NCBI GenBank assembly: GCA_022826745.1
Contig: JAJDUI010000006.1
Location: 135,015-199,014 of the forward strand
Direction: 5' to 3'
DNA from: Thermoanaerobaculia bacterium
Lineage (GTDB): Bacteria; Acidobacteriota; Thermoanaerobaculia; Multivoradales; Multivoraceae
Length of the DNA stretch: 64,000 nt
Shown here in pieces: positions 30,954-58,194 of the stretch. How positions within the stretch are numbered: position 1 is the stretch's first letter; each line of letters opens with the position of its first letter. The notes under the pieces were generated by a model. That model ran no database searches, had not been told where the DNA came from, and saw only the letters and a list, made by a program, of their open reading frames with translations. The translations under genes were made by a program, and so were the position numbers.

Positions 30954-32711
30954 ATGGCGGAGCCCGTTCACGCTTCACCTGCACACGACGAGCATCATCA
31001 CGACCAGAGTTTCTGGCGGAAGTACATCTTCTCGACCGATCACAAGGTGATCGGCGTCCAGTACTCGGTCACGGGTCTGGCGTTTCTCTTCTTCGGGTTC
31101 GTCCTGATGATGGTGATGCGCTGGAATCTCGCCTACCCGGGCGAGCCGATCCCCTTCATCGGTTCGCTCCTCGGCGAGAACCGGGCGCCCGGCGGCATCA
31201 TGCTGCCGGACTTCTACAACGAGCTCGGCGCGATGCACGGCACGATCATGGTGTTCCTCGGCGTCGTGCCGCTGGCGGTCGGCGGCTTCGGCAACTTCGT
31301 CATGCCGCTGCAGCTCGGCGCCCCGGACATGGCCTTCCCGCGGATCAACATGATCAGCTACTGGTGCCTGTTCCTGGGCGGCGTCACGATGTTCGCCAGC
31401 TTCTTCCTGCCGAATGGCGCCGCGGGCAACGGCTGGACCTCCTACTCGCCCCTCGCCGACATTGCGCTGAACGGCCAGACCGCCTGGCTGATCGGGATGA
31501 TCTTCCTGATCACGTCGTCTCTGCTGGGCGCCGTCAACTTCATCACCACGGCGATCCAGCTCCGCGCGCCGGGGATGACCTGGATGCGCCTGCCGTTCTT
31601 CTGCTGGGCGCAGATCGTGACCGCCTTCCTCCTGCTGCTGGCCTTCCCGCCGCTCGAGGCCGCGGGCGTGCTGCAGTTGATGGACCGGGTCGCGAACACC
31701 AGCTTCTTCATCCCGGAGGGTCTGGTCGTAGGCGGCGAGGTGCTCGAACGGAGCGGAGGCGGCAGTCCGCTGCTCTGGCAGCACCTGTTCTGGTTCCTGG
31801 CCCACCCCGAGGTCTACGTCCTCATCCTGCCGGCGATGGGGATCGTCGCCGAGGTGATCGCGAACAACAGCCGGAAGCCGCTCTGGGGCTACCGCTCGAT
31901 GGTCTACTCGCTGATCTTCCTCGGCTTCATGAGCTTCATCGTCTGGGCGCACCACATGTTCATCACGGGCATGGGCTCGGTGATGTCCACCTTCTTCCAG
32001 ACGACGACGATGATCATCTCGATCCCGTCGGTCATCATCCTGAGCGCGCTGTTCATCTCGCTATGGGGCGGTTCCATCCGCTACAACACGCCGATGCTGT
32101 TCGCGCTCGGCTTCCTGCCGATGTTCGGCATCGGAGGGCTGACCGGGCTACCGCTCGGTCTCTCGGCGGCCGACATCCCGCTCCACGACACGTACTACGT
32201 GATCGGCCACTTCCACTACGTCGTGGCGCCCGGAACCCTGTTCGCGCTGTTCGCCGGTGTCTACTACTGGTTCCCCAAGGTGACGGGGCGCAAGATGAAC
32301 GAGTTCCTGGGCCAACTCCACTTCTGGCCGTCGCTCGTCTTCATGAACGGGGTCTTCTTCCCGATGATGATCCAGGGCCTGAACGGCGTTTCGCGACGGC
32401 TCGCGGACGGCGGCATCAGCTACGACTTCGCTGGCGAGGTCGCGGGTCTCAACCGGATGATGTCGGTTTCGGCCTGGTGCCTGGCGCTGGCCCAGATTCC
32501 GTTCATCATCAACTTCTTCATGAGCATCCGCAACGGCGAGAAGGCCGGCCGCAACCCCTGGAACTCGACGACCGTCGAGTGGCTGGCGCCGTCGCCGGCG
32601 CCGCACGGGAACTTCGATCAGGAGATCGTGGTCACGCGTGGACCGTACGAGTACAGCGTCCCCGGTAGCGACAAGGACTACGTCCCACAGGCCGAACCGG
32701 CCTCAACCTGA
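30954..32711 (+). CDS. coxA: Cytochrome c oxidase subunit I (heme-copper oxidase)
   Basis: 585 residues, about 12 helices. Heme a ligands are H95 (MHGTIM) and H421; heme a3 ligand is H419 (GHFHYV). CuB ligands are H284 with crosslink Tyr288 (HPEVY) and H333-H334 (WAHHMF). D-channel D125 (GAPDMAFP) and E286 (HPEVY) are kept, so it is A-type. The position of the K-channel lysine (GVKV in classic A-type enzymes) is isoleucine 362 (PSVIILSAL), which is unusual. The enzyme reduces oxygen to water and pumps protons. A Shine-Dalgarno AAAGGAG precedes the ATG. Confidence 0.97.
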   Translation: MAEPVHASPAHDEHHHDQSFWRKYIFSTDHKVIGVQYSVTGLAFLFFGFVLMMVMRWNLAYPGEPIPFIGSLLGENRAPGGIMLPDFYNELGAMHGTIMVFLGVVPLAVGGFGNFVMPLQLGAPDMAFPRINMISYWCLFLGGVTMFASFFLPNGAAGNGWTSYSPLADIALNGQTAWLIGMIFLITSSLLGAVNFITTAIQLRAPGMTWMRLPFFCWAQIVTAFLLLLAFPPLEAAGVLQLMDRVANTSFFIPEGLVVGGEVLERSGGGSPLLWQHLFWFLAHPEVYVLILPAMGIVAEVIANNSRKPLWGYRSMVYSLIFLGFMSFIVWAHHMFITGMGSVMSTFFQTTTMIISIPSVIILSALFISLWGGSIRYNTPMLFALGFLPMFGIGGLTGLPLGLSAADIPLHDTYYVIGHFHYVVAPGTLFALFAGVYYWFPKVTGRKMNEFLGQLHFWPSLVFMNGVFFPMMIQGLNGVSRRLADGGISYDFAGEVAGLNRMMSVSAWCLALAQIPFIINFFMSIRNGEKAGRNPWNSTTVEWLAPSPAPHGNFDQEIVVTRGPYEYSVPGSDKDYVPQAEPAST

Positions 32712-33732: not shown

Positions 33733-34206
33733 ATGAACCTGAAGGTCATCCACATCGTCTTCGTCGGCAGCGCCATCCTCCTCGCGCTGTTCTTCGGCGG
33801 GTGGTGTCTGGCGCAGGGCAGCGCGTACGCTGTCGGCGCCGTCCTGTCCTTCGCGGCCGCGGCGGCACTCGTCTGGTACGGCATCTGGTTCTGGCGCAAG
33901 ATCACGACCCCCGAGGAGGAGTGGGCTCGCCGCCGGAAGCTGTTCCACACCGTTCCCCTGCTGGCCGGATTCTGGCTCTTCGGCTCCGACCGTGCCGCCT
34001 GGGCCTGTTCGGTCTGCTACGGCGCCGCCGAGGGCACGATGATCGATGCGGCCCGTGCCGGCGTCTGGTTCCTGCTGGCGGCGGTCTTCGTGCTGCAGGG
34101 CGCCTTCGTTCTCTTCTTTCTCTATCTCCGGCGCCGCGCGCGCCGCCTTCGGACCGACCCGGTGCCGCCCTGGTGGAGCACCGTTGAGGAGCCTGTCAAG
34201 TCATGA
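33733..34206 (+). CDS. Membrane protein with CxxC motif in the oxidase operon, function unknown
   Basis: 157 residues. Two N-terminal helices (about 5-27 and 33-52), a basic loop (EEEWARRRKLFH), a hydrophobic stretch with the periplasm-facing motif ACSVCYGAAEGTMIDAARAG (about 94-113), a further helix (about 114-135) and an Arg-rich tail. The CxxCY motif is not a heme site because the His is replaced by Tyr. It might bind copper or form a disulfide during CuA or CuB assembly; this is inference. The stop overlaps coxB ATG by four bases (ATGA), so it is translationally coupled to subunit II. Confidence 0.65.
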   Translation: MNLKVIHIVFVGSAILLALFFGGWCLAQGSAYAVGAVLSFAAAAALVWYGIWFWRKITTPEEEWARRRKLFHTVPLLAGFWLFGSDRAAWACSVCYGAAEGTMIDAARAGVWFLLAAVFVLQGAFVLFFLYLRRRARRLRTDPVPPWWSTVEEPVKS

Positions 34207-35006
34207 TGGATGCCATGTTCCCGGCCGCGGCGTCGGAGCACGCCGGCCGGATCGACAACATGATCGACGCGGTGCACTACCTGATGCTCGCGCTCTTCAT
34301 CGTCTGGGCCGCGTTCTTCGTGTACGTGCTGATGCGCTTCCGCGCCAGCCGCAACCCGAAGGCGGACTACGTCGGCGTCAAGAGCAAGATGAGCACCTAC
34401 GGCGAGGTCGCCGTCGCGATCGCGGAGGGGATTCTCCTGCTCGGCTTCTCGATCCCGATGTGGGCGGAGCGTGTCGACGAAGTGCCGCCGGAGTCTGAAT
34501 CGACTGTGGTGCGGGTCGTGGCGCAACAGTTCGCCTGGAACGTCTGGTATCCCGGCGCCGATGGCGAGTTCGGCGCGCAGGACCTGTCACTGATCGACGA
34601 AGCGACGAATCCGATCGGCCTCGATCGTGACGATCCGGCCGGCGCGGACGACATCTGGACGGTGAACCAGTTGCATCTCCCGGTCGACAAGGCGGCGATC
34701 ATCCACCTGTCGTCCAAGGACGTGATCCACAGCTTCAATCTGCCGAACATGCGGATCAAGCAGGACACGATCCCGGGCATCTCGATTCCGGTCTGGTTCG
34801 TGCCCACCAAGACGACGGCCCAGATTCGCGAGCAGACCGGCAACCCGGACTACGTCTACGAGATCGCCTGCGCCCAGCTTTGCGGCAACAGCCACTACTC
34901 GATGCGCGGCTTCCTGACCGTGCACACCGAGGAGGAGTTCCAGGTCTGGCTCGACGAGGAAGCGTCCTACCTCACCGGCAGCGACGACGACTTCTTCGAC
35001 TTCTAG
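34203..35006 (+). CDS. coxB: Cytochrome c oxidase subunit II
   Basis: 267 residues. Two N-terminal helices (about 22-46 and 67-88), then the periplasmic CuA domain. CuA ligands are intact: H176 (VIHSFNLP), C223-x3-C227-x3-H231-x2-M234 (CAQLCGNSHYSM). A long insert (about 118-150, LIDEATNPIGLDRDDPAGADD) precedes the CuA fold. There is no fused cytochrome c domain: the protein ends about 30 residues after the CuA loop with an acidic tail, so this is not a caa3-type subunit. ATG 34203 overlaps the preceding stop. Confidence 0.95.
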   Translation: MMDAMFPAAASEHAGRIDNMIDAVHYLMLALFIVWAAFFVYVLMRFRASRNPKADYVGVKSKMSTYGEVAVAIAEGILLLGFSIPMWAERVDEVPPESESTVVRVVAQQFAWNVWYPGADGEFGAQDLSLIDEATNPIGLDRDDPAGADDIWTVNQLHLPVDKAAIIHLSSKDVIHSFNLPNMRIKQDTIPGISIPVWFVPTKTTAQIREQTGNPDYVYEIACAQLCGNSHYSMRGFLTVHTEEEFQVWLDEEASYLTGSDDDFFDF

Positions 35007-49376: not shown

Positions 49377-49407
49377 AGAGCTTCGCGACAGAAACGACAC
49401 GAAGTGA

Positions 49408-49644
49408 GTTGCCGTCCGTGCGCTCTCTGACGGGCGAACGGACTGCGTCACCGGTGTCCACGCGGATGTCGGCGGCGGCCTCTCGGAAGGCGTGCTGCTC
49501 TGGATATGGTCGAAGGCCTGGTCGGCTGGCCTTGCCTTCCGGCTCTCGATCGTCGAGCTGCTGAAGCCGCTTTCTCGCACGCCTAGAATCTCAGAAAACT
49601 CACGCCAGCACCGCAATAATCGCGCAACTATCGCGTTACTGTGA
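49408..49644 (+). pseudogene. Decayed fragment similar to DUF2235 (T6SS phospholipase-like) hydrolase
   Basis: The 280-base gap after the CmcJ-like gene holds an open stretch without a proper start. It reads ...CVTGVHADVGGGLSEG, then VLLWIWSKAWSAGLAFRLS. DUF2235 proteins have GVHSDVGGGYPE followed by LSDIALxWMxxKAxxAGLxF, so order and spacing fit with a short deletion. The stretch is bounded by TGA (49405-49407 and 49642-49644). It looks like a relic of a lost gene; the match is from memory and short. Confidence 0.35.
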
Positions 49645-49656
49645 TACACGACTTGC

Positions 49657-52600
49657 GTGAAGCTTGCTGGCTGCATTGTGTGCCTTCTGGCGTTGACCGC
49701 TTCAGCAGCAGCGGCGGATCAGGGTCCGGACTACACGGACTGCGTGCCGTCGTCGCCGCAACTGACGTTCGAGCCCGGATACGCGGTGAGCATGTGCTTC
49801 GAGTACGAACGGGGCGGCGAGTGGGTCCAGGCGGACGCGGCCGACTTCGGGCTCGGCTCGCGACGGTCGGGCCTGCTCTGGTTCTTCGAGGCGGACAATG
49901 CCGAGGTGCTGGTCAAGGTGCTGGACGGGTGTGCCGTCAACGGCCATCGCTGGGTGTTCGCCGCGCCGGTGACGACGCTCGCCTTCAACTTGTGGGTCGA
50001 GGAGACGGCGACCGGAAACTCGTGGGTACACCGGAACCCGCGCGGCGGCCGGACCGCGACGACAGAGAGCGATCTGACGGCCTTCCCGTGCGGTCCGGCG
50101 GCGGCTTCAGCCGCCCCGGAGCGCGCCGGCGCCTCGTTGCCGCGGCCGACGACCGACATCGCGCAGACCGGCGCCGGGGGAACCCCGGACTGCGAACCCG
50201 AGCCCGTGACGACCCTCGCCGGCTTCACGGTCAGCATGTGCGTCGAACACGAGAGGGACGGCGAAGTGGTGGTGACGCGGGCGCGGGACTATGGCCTGAA
50301 CTCCCGGCAGTCCGCCCTCCTGTACTTCTTCGAGCGCGACAACGCGGAGGTGCTGGTCAAGGTGCTGGACGGGTGCGCCCTCAACGGCCACCGCTGGGTG
50401 TTCGTCGCGCCGGTGACCACCCTCGCGTTCAACCTGTCGATCGACCCGCCCGGCGGCGGCGCGTCCTGGACGCATACGAACAGCCTCGACCGGACCGCGT
50501 CGGCCAGAAGCGACCTCGAGGCGTTTGACTGTGCCGACGACGAGCAGCCGGGAGGCCCCGACTCTCTCGCTGGCCAGGTCGTGGGCTACCGGGGCGCCTG
50601 GTCGGACGTCGAGGCGATTCTGACCGCGAAGGGCGTCCTCCGGGTCGCGACCCCCAACGCCTTCGGCCGCTTCCGGTTCGACAACCTGGCTGCCGGCGAG
50701 TACGCCGTCAAGGTGTACGCGAACGGCCATCGCGCGACGCCTGCACGCCTGATCGACGTTCCCTACGACGGCCGCATGGAGTTGTTCGACCTGACGCCGA
50801 TTCCCACGGACCCGTTCGTCTTCCACTGGGAAGAGGACCAGAGCACCGCGGGCACCGAGTACTCGGCGGCCGTCAACCGGCCGCACGTGATCGAGTTCGA
50901 GGGCGAGGCGGTCACTGTGGCCGACAACTCGTCGGCGAACGTCCTGGCCCACGACTACAACATGCTGCTGGTGGATTCCGACGAGGCTTCGTGGTCGCAG
51001 GAGCACGCCTGGCGGCTGTTGACGACGATGCGTTCCATACCGCAGGAGACGAGGGATCCGTACGACGCTCAGTCGCTGGCCGCTTCGCAGTGGCTGCTGA
51101 CGCCCAGGCACCTGGAGGGCGACATCGAGGTGAGGACGGACGGGCCTTCCCCGGTCGTCCTGATCTCCGAGGCCGCCTTCGTGAACGCGAATCCCCGCGT
51201 GGCGACCGTCGACGGCAAGCGGGGAATCTGGTTCTCGAAGCGACTGCACCACGCCCTGGTGCGGTACGTGACGGATGATGGCCGCGACGTCGAGGCCTAC
51301 GAGAGGATCTTCGAGGAACGCTACGGCGTCACGACGGAGCCACACGACTACGCCGCCCTGACGCAGTGGACCACCGGCGAGGGCGCCGGCCGTTTCCAGC
51401 CGTTCCACGCGGAGGAGATCGTCACGCTGCTCAACATGTTCGAGGAGTTCCCGAGCGGCATGCACAAGACGCCGGGTCTCACTCACCTCGTTCGGCGGCT
51501 CGATGGCACGCCTCATCCCCTGTACCCGGGAGCACCGGCCGTAGCCTGGCCGGACGCCGGCTACATCGAGTTCATGGACGTTGCCTTCCTGTCGAGCGCC
51601 ATCGACGGCATCCACCGCCTGATCATTCACGAGAAGGCGCACTTCCTCTGGGCACACGTCTTCGACCAACGGACCCGCGAGGACTGGATCGAACTCGGCG
51701 GCTGGTACGAGGACCCCACGCAGCCGTCGGGCTGGTCCACGACCAAGACGACGGAGTTCGCCTCCGCGTACGCCCACCTGCTTAACCCGAACGAGGACAT
51801 GGCCGAGTCCATCGCCTACTTCATCATCACGCCGGACAAGCTGAGGTCCCGGTCTGTCGCCAAGTACGAGTTCGTGCGGGACCGGATCATGCAGGGGAAC
51901 CTGTATCTCTCCCGGATCCGGGAGGACCTGACCTTCCAGGTGTACAACCTGTTTCCGGACTACGTGTTCCCGGGCAAGGTCCGCCGCGTCGACATCAGCG
52001 TGACGGGCGGAGCCGAGCAGGACAAGGAGTTCCGCATCGAGATCGAGCTGCATGCGCTCGACCGGGATCTGGAGGGCGCCGCCTCAGCGTTCTCCCGAGT
52101 GTTCAGCAGTGCCGGTACGTACTTCGATCTGTGGCTCCACCCCGTGGACGGGCAGGGCAGGAGAATCGAGCTGGGCACCGTTCTCGTGGGCACGCAGAAG
52201 CTGAGCAGGTACAGCAAGGCGGGGTACTGGCGTCCGGGCCAACTCAAGATCAGCGACCGGGTCGGCAACAAGCGCTTCCAGAGAGGCGACGACTTCGGAT
52301 GGAAGCTCTATCTCGACAACTTCCTCGAGGACTGGACGCCGCCGGAGTACGTTCCCCGGACCGCCCGTCTCGACAGGGGCCCGGAAAGGGTCGTGGAAGG
52401 CCGCGTCGTCCAGTCGATCGAAGCGACCTGGGAGGTGAGTGAGAACAACCTCATGCGGGAGGGCTGGCCCTGCCATGCATCCATCAACGACGAGATTCTC
52501 TCGACGTATGCGCTGGGTGAGTATGGGCCTTTCGAGTCCGCCGGGAACCTGTGCCGGGCGCGCTTTCTCATGCCGGATTACATGCCGTCTTCGACGTACT

Positions 52601-53091
52601 CCCTGAACTACGTCACGATGGTCGATCGGGCCAGAAACTGGGGTGGCGCCAGGTTCACCAGCGAGCCCGGGGACGAGGAGCCTCAACGGATTCGGCTCCG
52701 TACGGCCAACCCCGACACGGAACCGCCCGAGCTCGACCTGAACAGGATGAGTATCGACGCGGAACCCACGAATCCTGAACAACCGAACGGCGAGACGATC
52801 GTCAGGTTCAGCTTTCGTGTGCGCGACGACATCTCGGGCTACATGAGCGGGAGAATCTACATACTCGATCCACAGGGGATAAGCCACCTCGTCTACGTGC
52901 CCTATGCGGACCGCGACCTTGTCTTTCCGCGGGGCGATCCCACCAGGTGGGAGGAGCTCACCGTCGTGCATGTCCTGCCGCCCGGCTCGGCGCCGGGAAC
53001 CTGGGGCGTTTCGAACTTATGGCTCGTCGACCGGGCCCACAACTTCGTTCACCACGACTTCACCGAAGTGATCCACTTCACGGTGGAGTGA
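49657..53091 (+). CDS. Secreted putative HExxH metallopeptidase with two N-terminal 4-Cys domains (paralog A)
   Basis: 1144 residues, GTG start, signal peptide ending AAAA/DQG. Two copies of a Cys-bounded domain (about 49735-50091 and 50191-50532) carry FFEADNAEVLVKVLDGC and NGHRWVF, the same domain that ends the protease at 11111. A CarboxypepD_reg-like module follows (GVLRVATPNAFGRFRFDNLAAGEYAVKVYANGHRA, split here from memory of the fold). The core has H658-E-K-A-H662 (IIHEKAHFLWAH) and NEDMAESIAYF with E717 55 residues later, a gluzincin-like zinc site. Ig-like modules end the protein. No Shine-Dalgarno is visible. Function: probable extracellular peptidase or binding protein. Confidence 0.75.
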   Translation: MKLAGCIVCLLALTASAAAADQGPDYTDCVPSSPQLTFEPGYAVSMCFEYERGGEWVQADAADFGLGSRRSGLLWFFEADNAEVLVKVLDGCAVNGHRWVFAAPVTTLAFNLWVEETATGNSWVHRNPRGGRTATTESDLTAFPCGPAAASAAPERAGASLPRPTTDIAQTGAGGTPDCEPEPVTTLAGFTVSMCVEHERDGEVVVTRARDYGLNSRQSALLYFFERDNAEVLVKVLDGCALNGHRWVFVAPVTTLAFNLSIDPPGGGASWTHTNSLDRTASARSDLEAFDCADDEQPGGPDSLAGQVVGYRGAWSDVEAILTAKGVLRVATPNAFGRFRFDNLAAGEYAVKVYANGHRATPARLIDVPYDGRMELFDLTPIPTDPFVFHWEEDQSTAGTEYSAAVNRPHVIEFEGEAVTVADNSSANVLAHDYNMLLVDSDEASWSQEHAWRLLTTMRSIPQETRDPYDAQSLAASQWLLTPRHLEGDIEVRTDGPSPVVLISEAAFVNANPRVATVDGKRGIWFSKRLHHALVRYVTDDGRDVEAYERIFEERYGVTTEPHDYAALTQWTTGEGAGRFQPFHAEEIVTLLNMFEEFPSGMHKTPGLTHLVRRLDGTPHPLYPGAPAVAWPDAGYIEFMDVAFLSSAIDGIHRLIIHEKAHFLWAHVFDQRTREDWIELGGWYEDPTQPSGWSTTKTTEFASAYAHLLNPNEDMAESIAYFIITPDKLRSRSVAKYEFVRDRIMQGNLYLSRIREDLTFQVYNLFPDYVFPGKVRRVDISVTGGAEQDKEFRIEIELHALDRDLEGAASAFSRVFSSAGTYFDLWLHPVDGQGRRIELGTVLVGTQKLSRYSKAGYWRPGQLKISDRVGNKRFQRGDDFGWKLYLDNFLEDWTPPEYVPRTARLDRGPERVVEGRVVQSIEATWEVSENNLMREGWPCHASINDEILSTYALGEYGPFESAGNLCRARFLMPDYMPSSTYSLNYVTMVDRARNWGGARFTSEPGDEEPQRIRLRTANPDTEPPELDLNRMSIDAEPTNPEQPNGETIVRFSFRVRDDISGYMSGRIYILDPQGISHLVYVPYADRDLVFPRGDPTRWEELTVVHVLPPGSAPGTWGVSNLWLVDRAHNFVHHDFTEVIHFTVE

Positions 53092-53100
53092 GGCGGCGGG
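50560..53100 (+). repeat. Tandem duplication, unit A
   Basis: From GAC at 50560 to just past the stop of paralog A, the DNA aligns with 53231-55774 over about 2.5 kb with long near-identical runs, for example around 50815-51100 versus 53485-53770. The shared segment includes the first 3'-flanking bases (GTGGAGTGAGGCGGCGGG). Confidence 0.9.
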
Positions 53101-53107
53101 TCGGCAG

Positions 53108-55765
53108 ATGGGAGCGAGAACGGACTGCTTCAGTCGTTTCTTCCTGAGGATGCACGTCGTCAGGCTCTCCGGCGTCGTCGTGTGGGTGCTCGCGTTGAGC
53201 GGTCCGGCGGCAGCGGCGGATCAAGGTACGGACTCCCTCACTGGTCAGGTGGTCGGCTATCGGGGCGTCTGGCAGGACGTCGAGGTGATGCTGACCGCGA
53301 AGGGGGTCCTCCGCGTCGCGACTCCGGACTCCCTCGGCCACTTCCGCTTCGACGGCCTCGCGGCCGGCACGTACGCCGTCAAGGTCTACGCGGAAGGTCA
53401 CCGCGCGACGCCGGCTCGCATGGTCGACGTCCCGCAGTGGGGCGACCGTCTGGACCCGTTCGATCTGACGCCGATTCCCGCGGACCCGTTCGTCTTCCAC
53501 TGGGAAGAGGACCAGAGCACTGCGGGCACCGAGTACTCGGCGGCCGTCAACCGGCCGCACGTGATCGAGTTCGAGGGCGAGACGGTCACGTTGGCCGACA
53601 ACTCGTCGGCCAACGTCCTGGCTCACGACTACAACATGCTGCTGGTGGATTCCGACGAGGCTTCGTGGTCGCAGGAGCACGCCTGGCGGCTGTTGACGAC
53701 GATGCGTTCCATTCCGCAGGAGACGAGGGATCCGTACGGCGCTCAGTCGCTGGCCGCTTCGCAGTGGCTGCTGACGCCCAGGTACCTGGAGGGCGACATC
53801 GAGCTGAGGACGGACGGGCCTTCTCCCGTCGTCCTGGTTTCCGAGGCTGCCTTCGTGAACGCGACTCCGCGGATAGCGACGGTGGACGGCAGGCGGGGAG
53901 TCTGGTTCTCGAAGCGGCTGCACCACGCCCTGGTGCGCTACGTGACGGACAACGGCCGCGACGTCGACGCGTACGAGAGGATCTTCGAGGAACGCTATGG
54001 CGTCACGACGGAGATACGCGACTACGCCGCCCTGACGCAATGGACCACCGGCGAGGGCGCCGGCCGTTTCCAGCGCTTCCACGCGGAGGAGATCATCACG
54101 CTGCTCAACATGCTCGAGGAGTTTCCGAGCGGCATGCACACGACGCCGGGCCTTACTCACCTCGTTCGGCGCCTCGACGGCACGCCCAATCCCCTGAGCC
54201 CATTGGCCCCGGCCATCGCCTGGACTCAAGCGGGCTACATCGAGTTCATGGACATCGCCTTCCTGTCGAGCGCCATCGACGGCATCCACCGCCTGATCAT
54301 TCACGAGAAGGCCCACTTTCTCTGGGCTCACGTCTTCGACCAGCGGACCCGCGACGATTGGGCCCGGCTCGGCGGCTGGTACGAGGACCCCGGGCAGCCG
54401 TCGGGCTGGTCCACGACCAGCACGACGGAGTTCGTCTCCGCGTACGCGCACCTAAGTAACCCGAACGAGGACATGGCCGAGTCCATCGCCTACTTCATCA
54501 TCACGCCGGACAAGCTGAGGTCCCGATCGGTCGCCAAGTACGAGTTCGTGCGGGACCGGATCATGCAGGGAGACCTGTATCTCTCCCGGTTCCGGGAGGA
54601 CTTGACCTTCCAGGTGTACAACCTGTTTCCGGACTACGTGTTCCCGGGCAGGGTCCGCCGCGTCGACATCACGGTGACGGGTGGAGCCGAGCAGGACAAG
54701 GAGATCCGCGTCGAGATCGAGTTGCATGCGCTCGACCGGGATCTGGAGGGCGCCGCATGGGCGGGCACCCGAGTTTTCAGCAGTGTCGGTACGTTCTTCG
54801 ACCTGACGCTCTTCCCCGTGGACGGGAACGGCAGGAGGATCGAGCAGGGGACGGTACTCGTCGGCACGATCAGGCTGAGCCGGTACAGCAAGGCGGGGTA
54901 CTGGGTTCCGGGGCAACTCAAGCTGGGCGACAGGGTCGGCAACGAGCGCTACCAGAGAGGCGACGACTTCGGATGGAAGCTCTACATCGACAACCCCCTC
55001 GAGGACTGGACGCCGCCGGAGTACGTTCCCGCGACCGCCCGTCTCGACAGGGGCCCGGAAGGGGTTGTGGAAGGCCGCGTCGTCCAGTCGATCGAAGCGA
55101 GCTGGGAGGTGAGCGAGGACAACCTGATGCGGGAGAGCTGGCCCTGCCACGCATCCATCAACGACGAGATTCTCTCGACGTACGCGCTGGGAGAGTACGG
55201 GCGTTTCGAGCCCGACGGGAACCTGTGCCGGGTGCGCTTTCTCATGCCGGACTACAGGCCGTCTTCGACGTACTCCCTGAACTTCGTCGACATGGTCGAT
55301 CGGGCCAGCAACTGGGGTGCCGCCTGGTTCACCAGTGAGCCCGGGGACGAGGATCCTCAACGGATCCGGGTGCGTACGGCCAACCCGGACACGGAACCGC
55401 CCGAGCTCGACCTGAACAGGATGAGCATCGACGCGGAACCCACGAATCCTGAACAACCGAACGGCGAGACGATCGTCAGGTTCACTTTTCGCGTGCGCGA
55501 CAACATCTCGGGCTACATGAGTGGGGCGGTCGTCTTTCTCGATCCACAGGGGATAGAGCACTTCGTCTACGTGCGCTATGCGGACCGCCACCTCCTCTTT
55601 CCGCGGGGCGATCCCACCAGGTGGGAGGAGCTCACGGTCGTGCATGTCCTGCCTCCCGGATCGGCACCGGGAACCTGGGGCGTTTCCAACCTGCGGCTCG
55701 CCGACCGGGCCCAGAACTTCGTGCATCACGATTTCACGGAAGTGATCCACTTCACGGTGGAGTGA
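53108..55765 (+). CDS. Secreted putative HExxH metallopeptidase (paralog B, without the 4-Cys domains)
   Basis: 885 residues (873 if ATG 53150 is the start, which gives a cleaner signal peptide, VVRLSGVVVWVLALSGPAAA). The mature start AAADQGTDSL joins the signal region directly to the CarboxypepD_reg-like module. It lacks exactly the 277-codon block (49732-50562) holding the two 4-Cys domains of paralog A. Otherwise co-linear: H399-E-K-A-H, NEDMAESIAYF, and the C-terminal Ig-like module GDPTRWEELTVVHVLPPGSA. It starts 16 bases after paralog A. Sequence divergence is modest, so both copies seem maintained. Confidence 0.75.
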   Translation: MGARTDCFSRFFLRMHVVRLSGVVVWVLALSGPAAAADQGTDSLTGQVVGYRGVWQDVEVMLTAKGVLRVATPDSLGHFRFDGLAAGTYAVKVYAEGHRATPARMVDVPQWGDRLDPFDLTPIPADPFVFHWEEDQSTAGTEYSAAVNRPHVIEFEGETVTLADNSSANVLAHDYNMLLVDSDEASWSQEHAWRLLTTMRSIPQETRDPYGAQSLAASQWLLTPRYLEGDIELRTDGPSPVVLVSEAAFVNATPRIATVDGRRGVWFSKRLHHALVRYVTDNGRDVDAYERIFEERYGVTTEIRDYAALTQWTTGEGAGRFQRFHAEEIITLLNMLEEFPSGMHTTPGLTHLVRRLDGTPNPLSPLAPAIAWTQAGYIEFMDIAFLSSAIDGIHRLIIHEKAHFLWAHVFDQRTRDDWARLGGWYEDPGQPSGWSTTSTTEFVSAYAHLSNPNEDMAESIAYFIITPDKLRSRSVAKYEFVRDRIMQGDLYLSRFREDLTFQVYNLFPDYVFPGRVRRVDITVTGGAEQDKEIRVEIELHALDRDLEGAAWAGTRVFSSVGTFFDLTLFPVDGNGRRIEQGTVLVGTIRLSRYSKAGYWVPGQLKLGDRVGNERYQRGDDFGWKLYIDNPLEDWTPPEYVPATARLDRGPEGVVEGRVVQSIEASWEVSEDNLMRESWPCHASINDEILSTYALGEYGRFEPDGNLCRVRFLMPDYRPSSTYSLNFVDMVDRASNWGAAWFTSEPGDEDPQRIRVRTANPDTEPPELDLNRMSIDAEPTNPEQPNGETIVRFTFRVRDNISGYMSGAVVFLDPQGIEHFVYVRYADRHLLFPRGDPTRWEELTVVHVLPPGSAPGTWGVSNLRLADRAQNFVHHDFTEVIHFTVE

Positions 55766-55774
55766 GGCGGCGGG
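53231..55774 (+). repeat. Tandem duplication, unit B
   Basis: Second unit of the duplication described at 50560-53100; it extends through the stop into GTGAGGCGGCGGG, after which the flanks diverge. Confidence 0.9.
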
Positions 55775-55850
55775 GCCGACAGGCGGGGGCCCGGAGCGTG
55801 GATCGAATGCACCTGGTCGATTCGCGACGACGCCTGAGCGCGGCCGAGGA

Positions 55851-55938
55851 GCGGGCGTAGCGCCCGCGTGTCAACGACTCGTTGACCTGGTCAACACGGC
55901 TGCGCACGGTTTCTCGCGCGAAACCGGCCGCCGGTTTC
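55851..55938. terminator. Cluster of three stem-loops between convergent genes
   Basis: GCGGGCG-TAG-CGCCCGC (55851-55867), GTCAACG-ACT-CGTTGAC (55870-55886) and GAAACCGG-CCG-CCGGTTTC (55920-55938). An alternative stem GTTTC...GAAAC (about 55909-55924) competes with the last. They lie in the 213-base gap after paralog B and before the end of the cytochrome-PhoD gene, so bidirectional termination is likely. No other feature is seen in this gap. Confidence 0.5.
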
Positions 55939-55978
55939 TCGCATTCCCCAAGTCAGGAAGCTCCGGGTGGCGTCGCGT

Positions 55979-57391
55979 CTACTTCGGCTGCAACTCCGAC
56001 AACCGCAGCGTCTGGCGCAGCAGGCGCCGGTTCGCGACGCTCCGGACCTCGACCCGGACCTCGGGGTCGGCGGCGGTCCAGTCGACCTCGATGTAGCCGA
56101 AGCCCGGCTCGCGCGTGGCCTGGCCGACGCGGTGCCGGTTCGGGCCGATCCCGGCCGTCTCGCGGCGGTTGAGCGGACCGGACGTGAAGTCCCATAGCGG
56201 ATAGGGCGCCTCGCCGTCGAGGCGCGAGACGTCGGCCCAGGGAGTGTCGCCGCTCAGCAGCAGGACGCCGGTCGCGCCGGTGTCCCGGACCAGGTCGATC
56301 AGCCGCCGGCGCTCGTTCGGCATGTTCGCCCAGCTTTCCCGGCCGGTGAACTCCATGACGAAGGGGATGCTGGTGGCGATCAGGCGCAGGTCGGCCGGTT
56401 GCCGAAGCTGCTCTTCGAGCCAGCGCCACTGCTCCTCGCTCAGCATTCGGGCGCGCTCGTGGTCGTTCGCCAGGTAGGGGCCCATGCCCAGGAGTTCCCG
56501 CCTCCGGGCTTCGTCGGGCGATACGCGCCAGAGCGGCCCGCGACCGTACCGGGTATCCAGCAGGATGACCTGAAGGCGCCGACCCGGCGGCCCGAAGCGT
56601 TGGGAAGTGTAGACACCTTGCTGTTGCCGTCGCGGCGATCCGCTGGGTTCATTCCAGAAGTCCAGGAAGACCTCTTGCGACTCGGCCCGCTTGCCGAAGT
56701 CGGCGCCGCCGTCCTCGCGGCCGAAGTCCAGGTCGTTCCAGGTTGCCAGGAAGCGGCTCTGCCGGCGCAGCTCGGCGAACCCCGGCTTCGTCGTCAGCTT
56801 GTCGTACTGCAGGCGGAGTTGCTGCATGTCTTCCGTACCGGCCAGGACGCTGTTGCCGAGCATCAACGTGAGCTGGGGCCTGAGCGCGAGCACGGTGTCC
56901 CAGACCGGCTGCGCCCGGTCCTGGTCGGCGCTGGAACCGAAGGCGATGCGGCTGATGACCTCCCGGGTCAATGTGTCGGCGGCCCGGCGACGCCGGTGGA
57001 GGGACCAGACGTAGGCCGTCAGTGCATCGACGTCGCCTTCGTCGAGTTCCATACCGCCGAGCGGCCACATCTCGTACTTGCCGCCAAACCGGCGGCCCGC
57101 GCCGTGGCGGAAGCCGGTTTCGATCGCGTTGCGCACGGCGGCAAGCGATCCGTCGCCGTGAAGCCACTCTTCGTCGGTCAGGTCCGGTCCGCGGCGGTTC
57201 CCCTGGCCTTCCCAGTGGTGGCACACCGGGCACGTGCCGCCGCGGTAGATCACCGCGCCCCGTTCGACCGCCGCCGGGTCGGCGGCGCCGAGGGCGGGTC
57301 CGGCCGCCCAGGCGAGGACGACGACGAAGAGGACGCCGAGACGGAGAAACCGGCGCCGGCGGCGCCGGACACCTGACCCGATGCACGGCAT
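55979..57391 (-). CDS. Cytochrome c fused to a PhoD-like phosphatase domain that lacks metal ligands
   Basis: 470 residues, exported (basic start, then FLRLGVLFVVVLAWAAGPALG). Residues about 38-135 form a cytochrome c domain: C54-x2-C57-H58 and a likely axial Met114 (LGGMELDEGDVDALTAYVWSL). Residues about 145-470 match PhoD-type alkaline phosphatases in order: RIAFGSSADQD, QPVWDTV, TEDMQQLRLQYDKL, RVQ-like LQVILLDTRYGRGPLW and YPLWDFTSGPLN. But metal-site motifs are altered: GNS (179-181) for GDN, WNDLD (218-222) for WDDHD, and GDTP (381-384) for GDRH. It is probably a redox or binding protein, not a phosphatase. Confidence 0.8.
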   Translation of the reverse strand: MPCIGSGVRRRRRRFLRLGVLFVVVLAWAAGPALGAADPAAVERGAVIYRGGTCPVCHHWEGQGNRRGPDLTDEEWLHGDGSLAAVRNAIETGFRHGAGRRFGGKYEMWPLGGMELDEGDVDALTAYVWSLHRRRRAADTLTREVISRIAFGSSADQDRAQPVWDTVLALRPQLTLMLGNSVLAGTEDMQQLRLQYDKLTTKPGFAELRRQSRFLATWNDLDFGREDGGADFGKRAESQEVFLDFWNEPSGSPRRQQQGVYTSQRFGPPGRRLQVILLDTRYGRGPLWRVSPDEARRRELLGMGPYLANDHERARMLSEEQWRWLEEQLRQPADLRLIATSIPFVMEFTGRESWANMPNERRRLIDLVRDTGATGVLLLSGDTPWADVSRLDGEAPYPLWDFTSGPLNRRETAGIGPNRHRVGQATREPGFGYIEVDWTAADPEVRVEVRSVANRRLLRQTLRLSELQPK

Positions 57392-57504: not shown

Positions 57505-58194
57505 ATGTGTGGGAGGTTCAAAGTACCCGCATGGGGCTATGAGGCGCACAACGGCCCGGCGGTCTGGGGGCAACTCGACCCGGTGTACCAGGTGTGTTCC
57601 CTGGGAGGGGAGCAGTCGCCGATCGACTTGAGTTGCGCCCGTCGCGAGGAGCTCGTGCCCGTCGGCTTCGACTACCGGTCGTCGCCGGCAACCGTCGAGA
57701 ACACCGGGCATTCGATCCAGGTCAACCCGGCTTCCGGCAACGGCATCGTTGTCGACGGAGTGCGATACGAGCTGGAGCAGTTCCACTTTCACCACGCCGC
57801 CGAGCACACGGTCGAGGGTGTTCGCCTGCCGCTGGAAATGCACTTCGTGCACCGGAGCGAAGGCGGCGCGCTGGCCGTGGTCGGGGTCCTGTTCCACGAG
57901 GGACCGGAGAACCGGGCCCTGGCGACGTTCTGGGACCCTCTGCCCGCCGAGGCCGGGCCGCCGCGCGCCGTTCCGGAGGCGGTCGACGTGCCGGCCCTGT
58001 TGCCTGAGCGCCGCACGACCTGGCGGTACCGCGGTTCGCTCACCACGCCGCCGTGTACGGAAGGCGTCGCCTGGATCGTCCTGACCGAGACACTGACGCT
58101 GTCGGCCGGCCAGATCGAGGCCTTCGCGGCGATCTTCCCGAACAACTACCGGCCGGTGCAGCCGCTGGGCGATCGCGTACTCGTTCGCGGATGA
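57505..58194 (+). CDS. Alpha-type carbonic anhydrase
   Basis: 229 residues. Hydrates CO2 to bicarbonate. Zinc ligands: two His in QFHFHHAAEHTVEG and the third in LEMHFVHR; the gatekeeper Thr is in SLTTPPCTEGV, and QSPIDLS is the usual N-terminal signature. Bacterial alpha-CAs are generally exported, but this one starts MCGRFKVPAWGYEAHNGP directly at the fold, with no signal peptide. Either it is cytoplasmic or the export signal lies in a different start not seen upstream. Monocistronic, divergent from the cytochrome-PhoD gene. Confidence 0.93.
   Translation: MCGRFKVPAWGYEAHNGPAVWGQLDPVYQVCSLGGEQSPIDLSCARREELVPVGFDYRSSPATVENTGHSIQVNPASGNGIVVDGVRYELEQFHFHHAAEHTVEGVRLPLEMHFVHRSEGGALAVVGVLFHEGPENRALATFWDPLPAEAGPPRAVPEAVDVPALLPERRTTWRYRGSLTTPPCTEGVAWIVLTETLTLSAGQIEAFAAIFPNNYRPVQPLGDRVLVRG

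Follow-up and report, generated by a model that had tools for sequence, protein, structure and literature searches.

Does a cytochrome c that is joined to a PhoD-like domain carry a working phosphatase and, if not, what might the former enzyme do for the electron carrier? The question is raised by a single open reading frame (ATG start, 470 amino acids; 55979..57391) on the reverse strand of the window, the 64,000-nucleotide stretch of Thermoanaerobaculia DNA analysed here; all features of the gene given below lie on the same strand. An initial annotation had read the product as a cytochrome c fused to a PhoD-like pseudophosphatase. The fusion itself is borne out by two Pfam matches above cutoff, to Cytochrom_C (PF00034; 33.4 bits versus a cutoff of 21.3, residues 42-131) and to PhoD (PF09423; 38.2 bits versus a cutoff of 27, residues 255-412), and by the structural match described below. 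An Arg-rich N-terminus and a hydrophobic stretch, recognized by eye in the sequence and alignment, form a probable, poorly conserved Sec signal peptide (residues 1-36; 57284..57391), and the product is predicted to be exported and to reside probably in the periplasm. Tat export was considered and rejected, as the orthologs do not share the RRRFL stretch seen in the window species.

The monoheme class I cytochrome c domain (residues 39-135; 56987..57277), whose nearest solved relatives are CcoP and cytochrome c4, contains the invariant heme attachment motif CPVCH (residues 54-58; 57218..57232). The candidate axial methionine is likewise retained: Met108 (57068..57070), within the stretch KYEMWPLGGM, lies where a distal ligand would be expected, is invariant in all fusions and is common to the nearest stand-alone cytochromes. 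The fusion stays below the curated scores both of the CcoP family (TIGR00782; 38.1 bits versus 179.95) and of the PVC-type heme-binding domain family (TIGR02603; 20.6 bits versus 68.15). Neighbouring genes of the stand-alone cytochrome relatives encode a histidine kinase, an ArsP-type permease or an FKBP isomerase but no PhoD; as a hint to a partner, this line was dropped.

An AlphaFold2 model of the fusion, built from a 53-row alignment, has a mean pLDDT of 86, with most of the PhoD part above 90 and the cytochrome part lower. Its best solved match is Bacillus subtilis PhoD (2YEQ; Z 31.3, rmsd 2.6 over 307 residues, VIA-align), and the modelled C-terminal domain (residues 144-468; 55988..56962) thus has the PhoD fold. 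Alignment with 2YEQ confirmed the ligand loss that had been proposed, affecting four predicted iron ligands and two calcium ligands. In B. subtilis PhoD, replacement of the metal-site residues C180, D207, D265, D266, N271, N272 and D436 abolished or strongly cut activity, single changes proved three calcium ligands as well as C180 and D436 to be essential, and the iron is bound by a tyrosine (PMC4223295). With chain number plus 56 as the offset of the alignment, we assigned Y210 and H438 as the remaining iron ligands.

The positions of C180, D207, Y210 and H438 are occupied in all fusions by Ser or Gly154, Asn180, Leu183 and Pro384, and all four predicted iron ligands are therefore lost. The calcium site has five positions: D265 and N271 have changed (to Asn219 and Glu226), D266 and N272 are kept (as Asp220 and Asp227), and D436 varies, with Asp, Asn or His at residue 382. 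In the window species, these changes appear as GNSVL in place of GDNVY (residues 179-183; 56843..56857), WNDLD in place of WDDHD (residues 218-222; 56726..56740) and GDTPW in place of GDRH (residues 381-385; 56237..56251), in agreement with the substitutions first read from the sequence. The fourth proposed change, GSC to GSS (residues 152-154, within GSSA; 56927..56938), holds for the window species and those closest to it; the rest of the genus has GSG, GAG, ASG or GGG. Three further losses had escaped the initial annotation, namely the Tyr of GDNxY (Leu183), the His of WDDHD (Leu221) and the N271-aligned Asn (Glu226).

These losses are concentrated on the ligand positions of the alignment: the 16 intact relatives used share 62 conserved positions, and the fusions have changed six of the nine that are ligands versus 11 of the 53 others (Fisher p 0.01). 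Neither of the findings named at the outset as refuting the initial reading turned up in a fusion: no homolog has intact ligands, and no new Cys or His stands at a lost ligand position, although one vacated position has become Glu. The acids left at the metal site are Asp220 and Asp227, with Asp382 in most orthologs only. Glu226-Asp227 (56711..56716) replaces the Asn-Asp of intact relatives, and its register with N271-N272 of 2YEQ, which hangs on a one-residue insertion, is likely though not certain. Asp220, Glu226 and Asp227 are invariant across the fusions and, together with Asp382 in most species, could hold one calcium ion. The metal site as originally described is thus dismantled, but because of this possible one-calcium site we infer, rather than observe, the loss of phosphatase chemistry. 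Judged by sequence and modelled fold, the domain is a PhoD by descent; judged by its aligned metal site, it is no longer a PhoD phosphatase.

Orthologs of the fusion, 79-97% identical, were identified in 20 of the 21 genomes of the genus, and the same losses are shared by 19 full-length copies (that of the window included) and one copy split by an assembly gap, which excludes a sequencing fluke. A frame break in one genome (G020) is only apparent and caused by a 10-N assembly gap. None of the fusion copies has intact metal ligands, the losses being present in every copy read. Beyond the genus, searches of 149 genomes of the class and of a sample of 396 genomes of the phylum Acidobacteriota gave no full-length match to the fusion. 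Named genomes were scanned with two peptides of the cytochrome part, a query that detects close relatives only; the named records carrying the fusion are Acidobacteriota, of the class Thermoanaerobaculia where stated, and include Candidatus Multivorans thiocomprendens, and the names of several suggest sponge metagenomes as their source. Within the Acidobacteriota surveyed, the pseudophosphatase-cytochrome c fusion is genuine and genus-specific.

In the tree, the PhoD-like domains of the fusions form one clade (support 100/100) whose stem measures about 0.87 changes per site, with slow change afterwards, which indicates a single origin of the fusion. Their nearest relatives are stand-alone, mostly intact PhoDs, with intact proteins (L072-L074, L147) on nearby branches, and the genome's own intact paralog lies in a different part of the tree. 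The simplest account is that fusion, metal loss and rapid change took place in the ancestor of the genus and were followed by constraint.

Degenerate PhoD relatives were also observed elsewhere. Another acidobacterial genus (G319, G245) has an independent, partly degenerate stand-alone lineage (L131, L132, L133) with GDSID or GHSVD, WDDN and KN motifs that retains GDRH. Two further partly degenerate PhoDs (L148:1066-2187 in G489 and L150:3722-4855 in G488) have GDVYY or GDAYY, WGDED and GERH. A cytochrome c7-like gene with four CxxCH motifs lies 32 bases downstream of the former on the same strand, and none was seen near the latter. A PhoD relative in G361 (L076:1312-2451) shows partial ligand loss, with GDAVH and GGRH.

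In its genomic surroundings, the gene is transcribed alone, and no conserved operon partner was found at the genus loci compared. In most species, the upstream order is carbonic anhydrase, UPF0261, PVC-type cytochrome protein and sulfatase. The carbonic anhydrase, of the alpha ("eukaryotic") type and divergent from the fusion (window 57505-58194), was not found at four loci (L052-L055) and is broken at a fifth (L059). In one species (G018, L127), a deletion at the syntenic site has taken out the fusion together with all but about 53 codons of the carbonic anhydrase, and both flanks are intact; the fusion gene is therefore dispensable and not essential everywhere. On its other side, the fusion is adjoined in the window by a 6.6 kb insert (49377-55974) encoding two tandem, near-duplicate secreted proteins with a weak zinc metallopeptidase match, and two other loci (L050, L064) are joined directly without it. 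The genome encodes two cytochrome c assembly family proteins, and its sole COX1 found (window 30954-32711) lies 24 kb from the fusion. A COX2 gene (window 34203-35006) is located about 1.5 kb downstream of COX1.

Median pairwise dN/dS (Nei-Gojobori) was about 0.08 for the cytochrome, about 0.19 for the PhoD-like domain and about 0.145 for the intact paralog. By these ratios, the dead domain is under strong purifying selection after metal loss, and it evolves faster than the cytochrome part. Between 56 and 67% of its positions do not vary across the genus, and the fusions have gained two invariant residues, Trp385 and His311. Conservation is slightly higher in the loops around the old active site than in the remainder of the domain (mean 0.94 versus 0.88, p 0.04), a weak argument that the pocket is used.

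The redox-linked binding or structural role suggested for this fusion at the outset is plausible. The retention of the fusion under selection in nearly every species of the genus, with all four predicted iron ligands gone, probably points to a binding function rather than to phosphate cleavage. We consider it about an even call that the PhoD-fold domain acts in non-catalytic binding or docking and so brings the heme into position for a partner. In this reading, an exported cytochrome c with one heme carries a C-terminal PhoD fold devoid of PhoD chemistry, kept as a binding or docking module whose target would be an anionic ligand or another protein, and this module would keep the cytochrome close to the partner with which it exchanges electrons. 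The heme would conduct the electrons, and the dead domain would supply specificity or an anchor, as in GAP50 and Vps29. The fold and the motif losses identical in all copies read support this reading, as do the single clade with its long stem and later slow change, a dN/dS near that of the intact paralog, the conserved pocket loops, the invariant CxxCH and Met108, the cytochrome c assembly and COX1 genes of the genome, and the match of the model to the GAP50 anchor (3TGH; Z 24.0). However, no adjacent partner gene is conserved, the divergent carbonic anhydrase being absent in several species; the fusion is lost in one species; the pocket signal is weak; and the model is less confident in its cytochrome part. 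It seems improbable that the metal-emptied pocket is a redox-coupled receptor, in which binding of a partner or an anionic ligand is coupled to whether the heme is oxidized or reduced; if true, it would represent a new type of redox sensor in the periplasm, or of adaptor for electron transfer, limited to one acidobacterial genus.

The same observations bear on other explanations. If the invariant Asp220, Glu226 and Asp227 bound one calcium together with Asp382, the domain could be a rebuilt enzyme for which the cytochrome feeds or drains electrons in a new reaction, and Glu226, a good calcium ligand in place of Asn, and the newly invariant Trp385 and His311 are in line with this. We regard it as unlikely, given that all four predicted iron ligands are gone, that Asp382 is Asn or His in relatives, and that three calcium ligands, C180 and D436 are each essential in B. 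subtilis PhoD (PMC4223295). The non-conserved gene neighbours, the faster evolution of the domain relative to the cytochrome and the loss of the gene in one species would also suit a passive passenger that mainly stabilizes or shields the cytochrome and has no specific ligand. A dN/dS of 0.19 over 325 residues, near that of the intact paralog, and the proportion of invariant positions exceed the needs of a spacer and make such a passenger doubtful. To our knowledge, a redox reaction of the kind proposed for a rebuilt enzyme is without precedent in the PhoD fold.

Most fusion-bearing genomes also encode an intact stand-alone paralog (about 40% identity), and the dead domain might pair with this PhoD lipoprotein and tune it by redox state. 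Such a regulatory pseudoenzyme appears very improbable: the intact paralog is missing from G015 (10 contigs, 95% complete), which has the fusion, the fusion is missing from G018, which has the paralog, and the two proteins occupy different parts of the tree. An obligate pairing was rejected since these two genomes break the co-occurrence. Binding or docking remains the reading that we propose. Independently of the role, PhoD is a standard marker of bacterial phosphate acquisition, and because the fusion scores above the Pfam PhoD cutoff without the metal site, gene surveys would miscount it as an alkaline phosphatase.

Compared with known systems, the cytochrome part has its CxxCH, a PDLTDxEW(L/V) stretch and the Met108 region in common with class I cytochromes of the CcoP and cytochrome c4 type and with the small stand-alone cytochromes of Acidobacteriota (L084-L088); it differs in the attached PhoD fold and in lacking an oxidase operon around the gene. 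Small stand-alone PhoD-like proteins of Acidobacteriota (L147, L072-L074, and the lipoprotein-like L031 of this genome) align over the whole domain at 38-48% identity, but keep GSC, GDNxY, WDDHD and GDxH and have no cytochrome. B. subtilis PhoD shares the fold and the motif positions, whereas the fusion, beyond its changed iron and calcium ligands, lacks the C-terminal capping helix and has a cytochrome c domain in front. Plasmodium GAP50 is a purple-acid-phosphatase-fold protein that acts as a membrane anchor, although phosphatase activity has been claimed for it (PMC8949495). Like GAP50, retromer Vps29, which was among the Foldseek matches of the model, uses the metallophosphatase superfold as an anchor or scaffold; both belong to other families and other compartments and have no heme. 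A PhoD-cytochrome c fusion was not reported in the literature searched. While reuse of this superfold as an anchor or scaffold is already known, its combination with a cytochrome is the variation seen here, and the fusion adds a clear case, of single origin and under later purifying selection, in which a metallophosphatase fold has lost its metals, found another use and been attached to an electron carrier.
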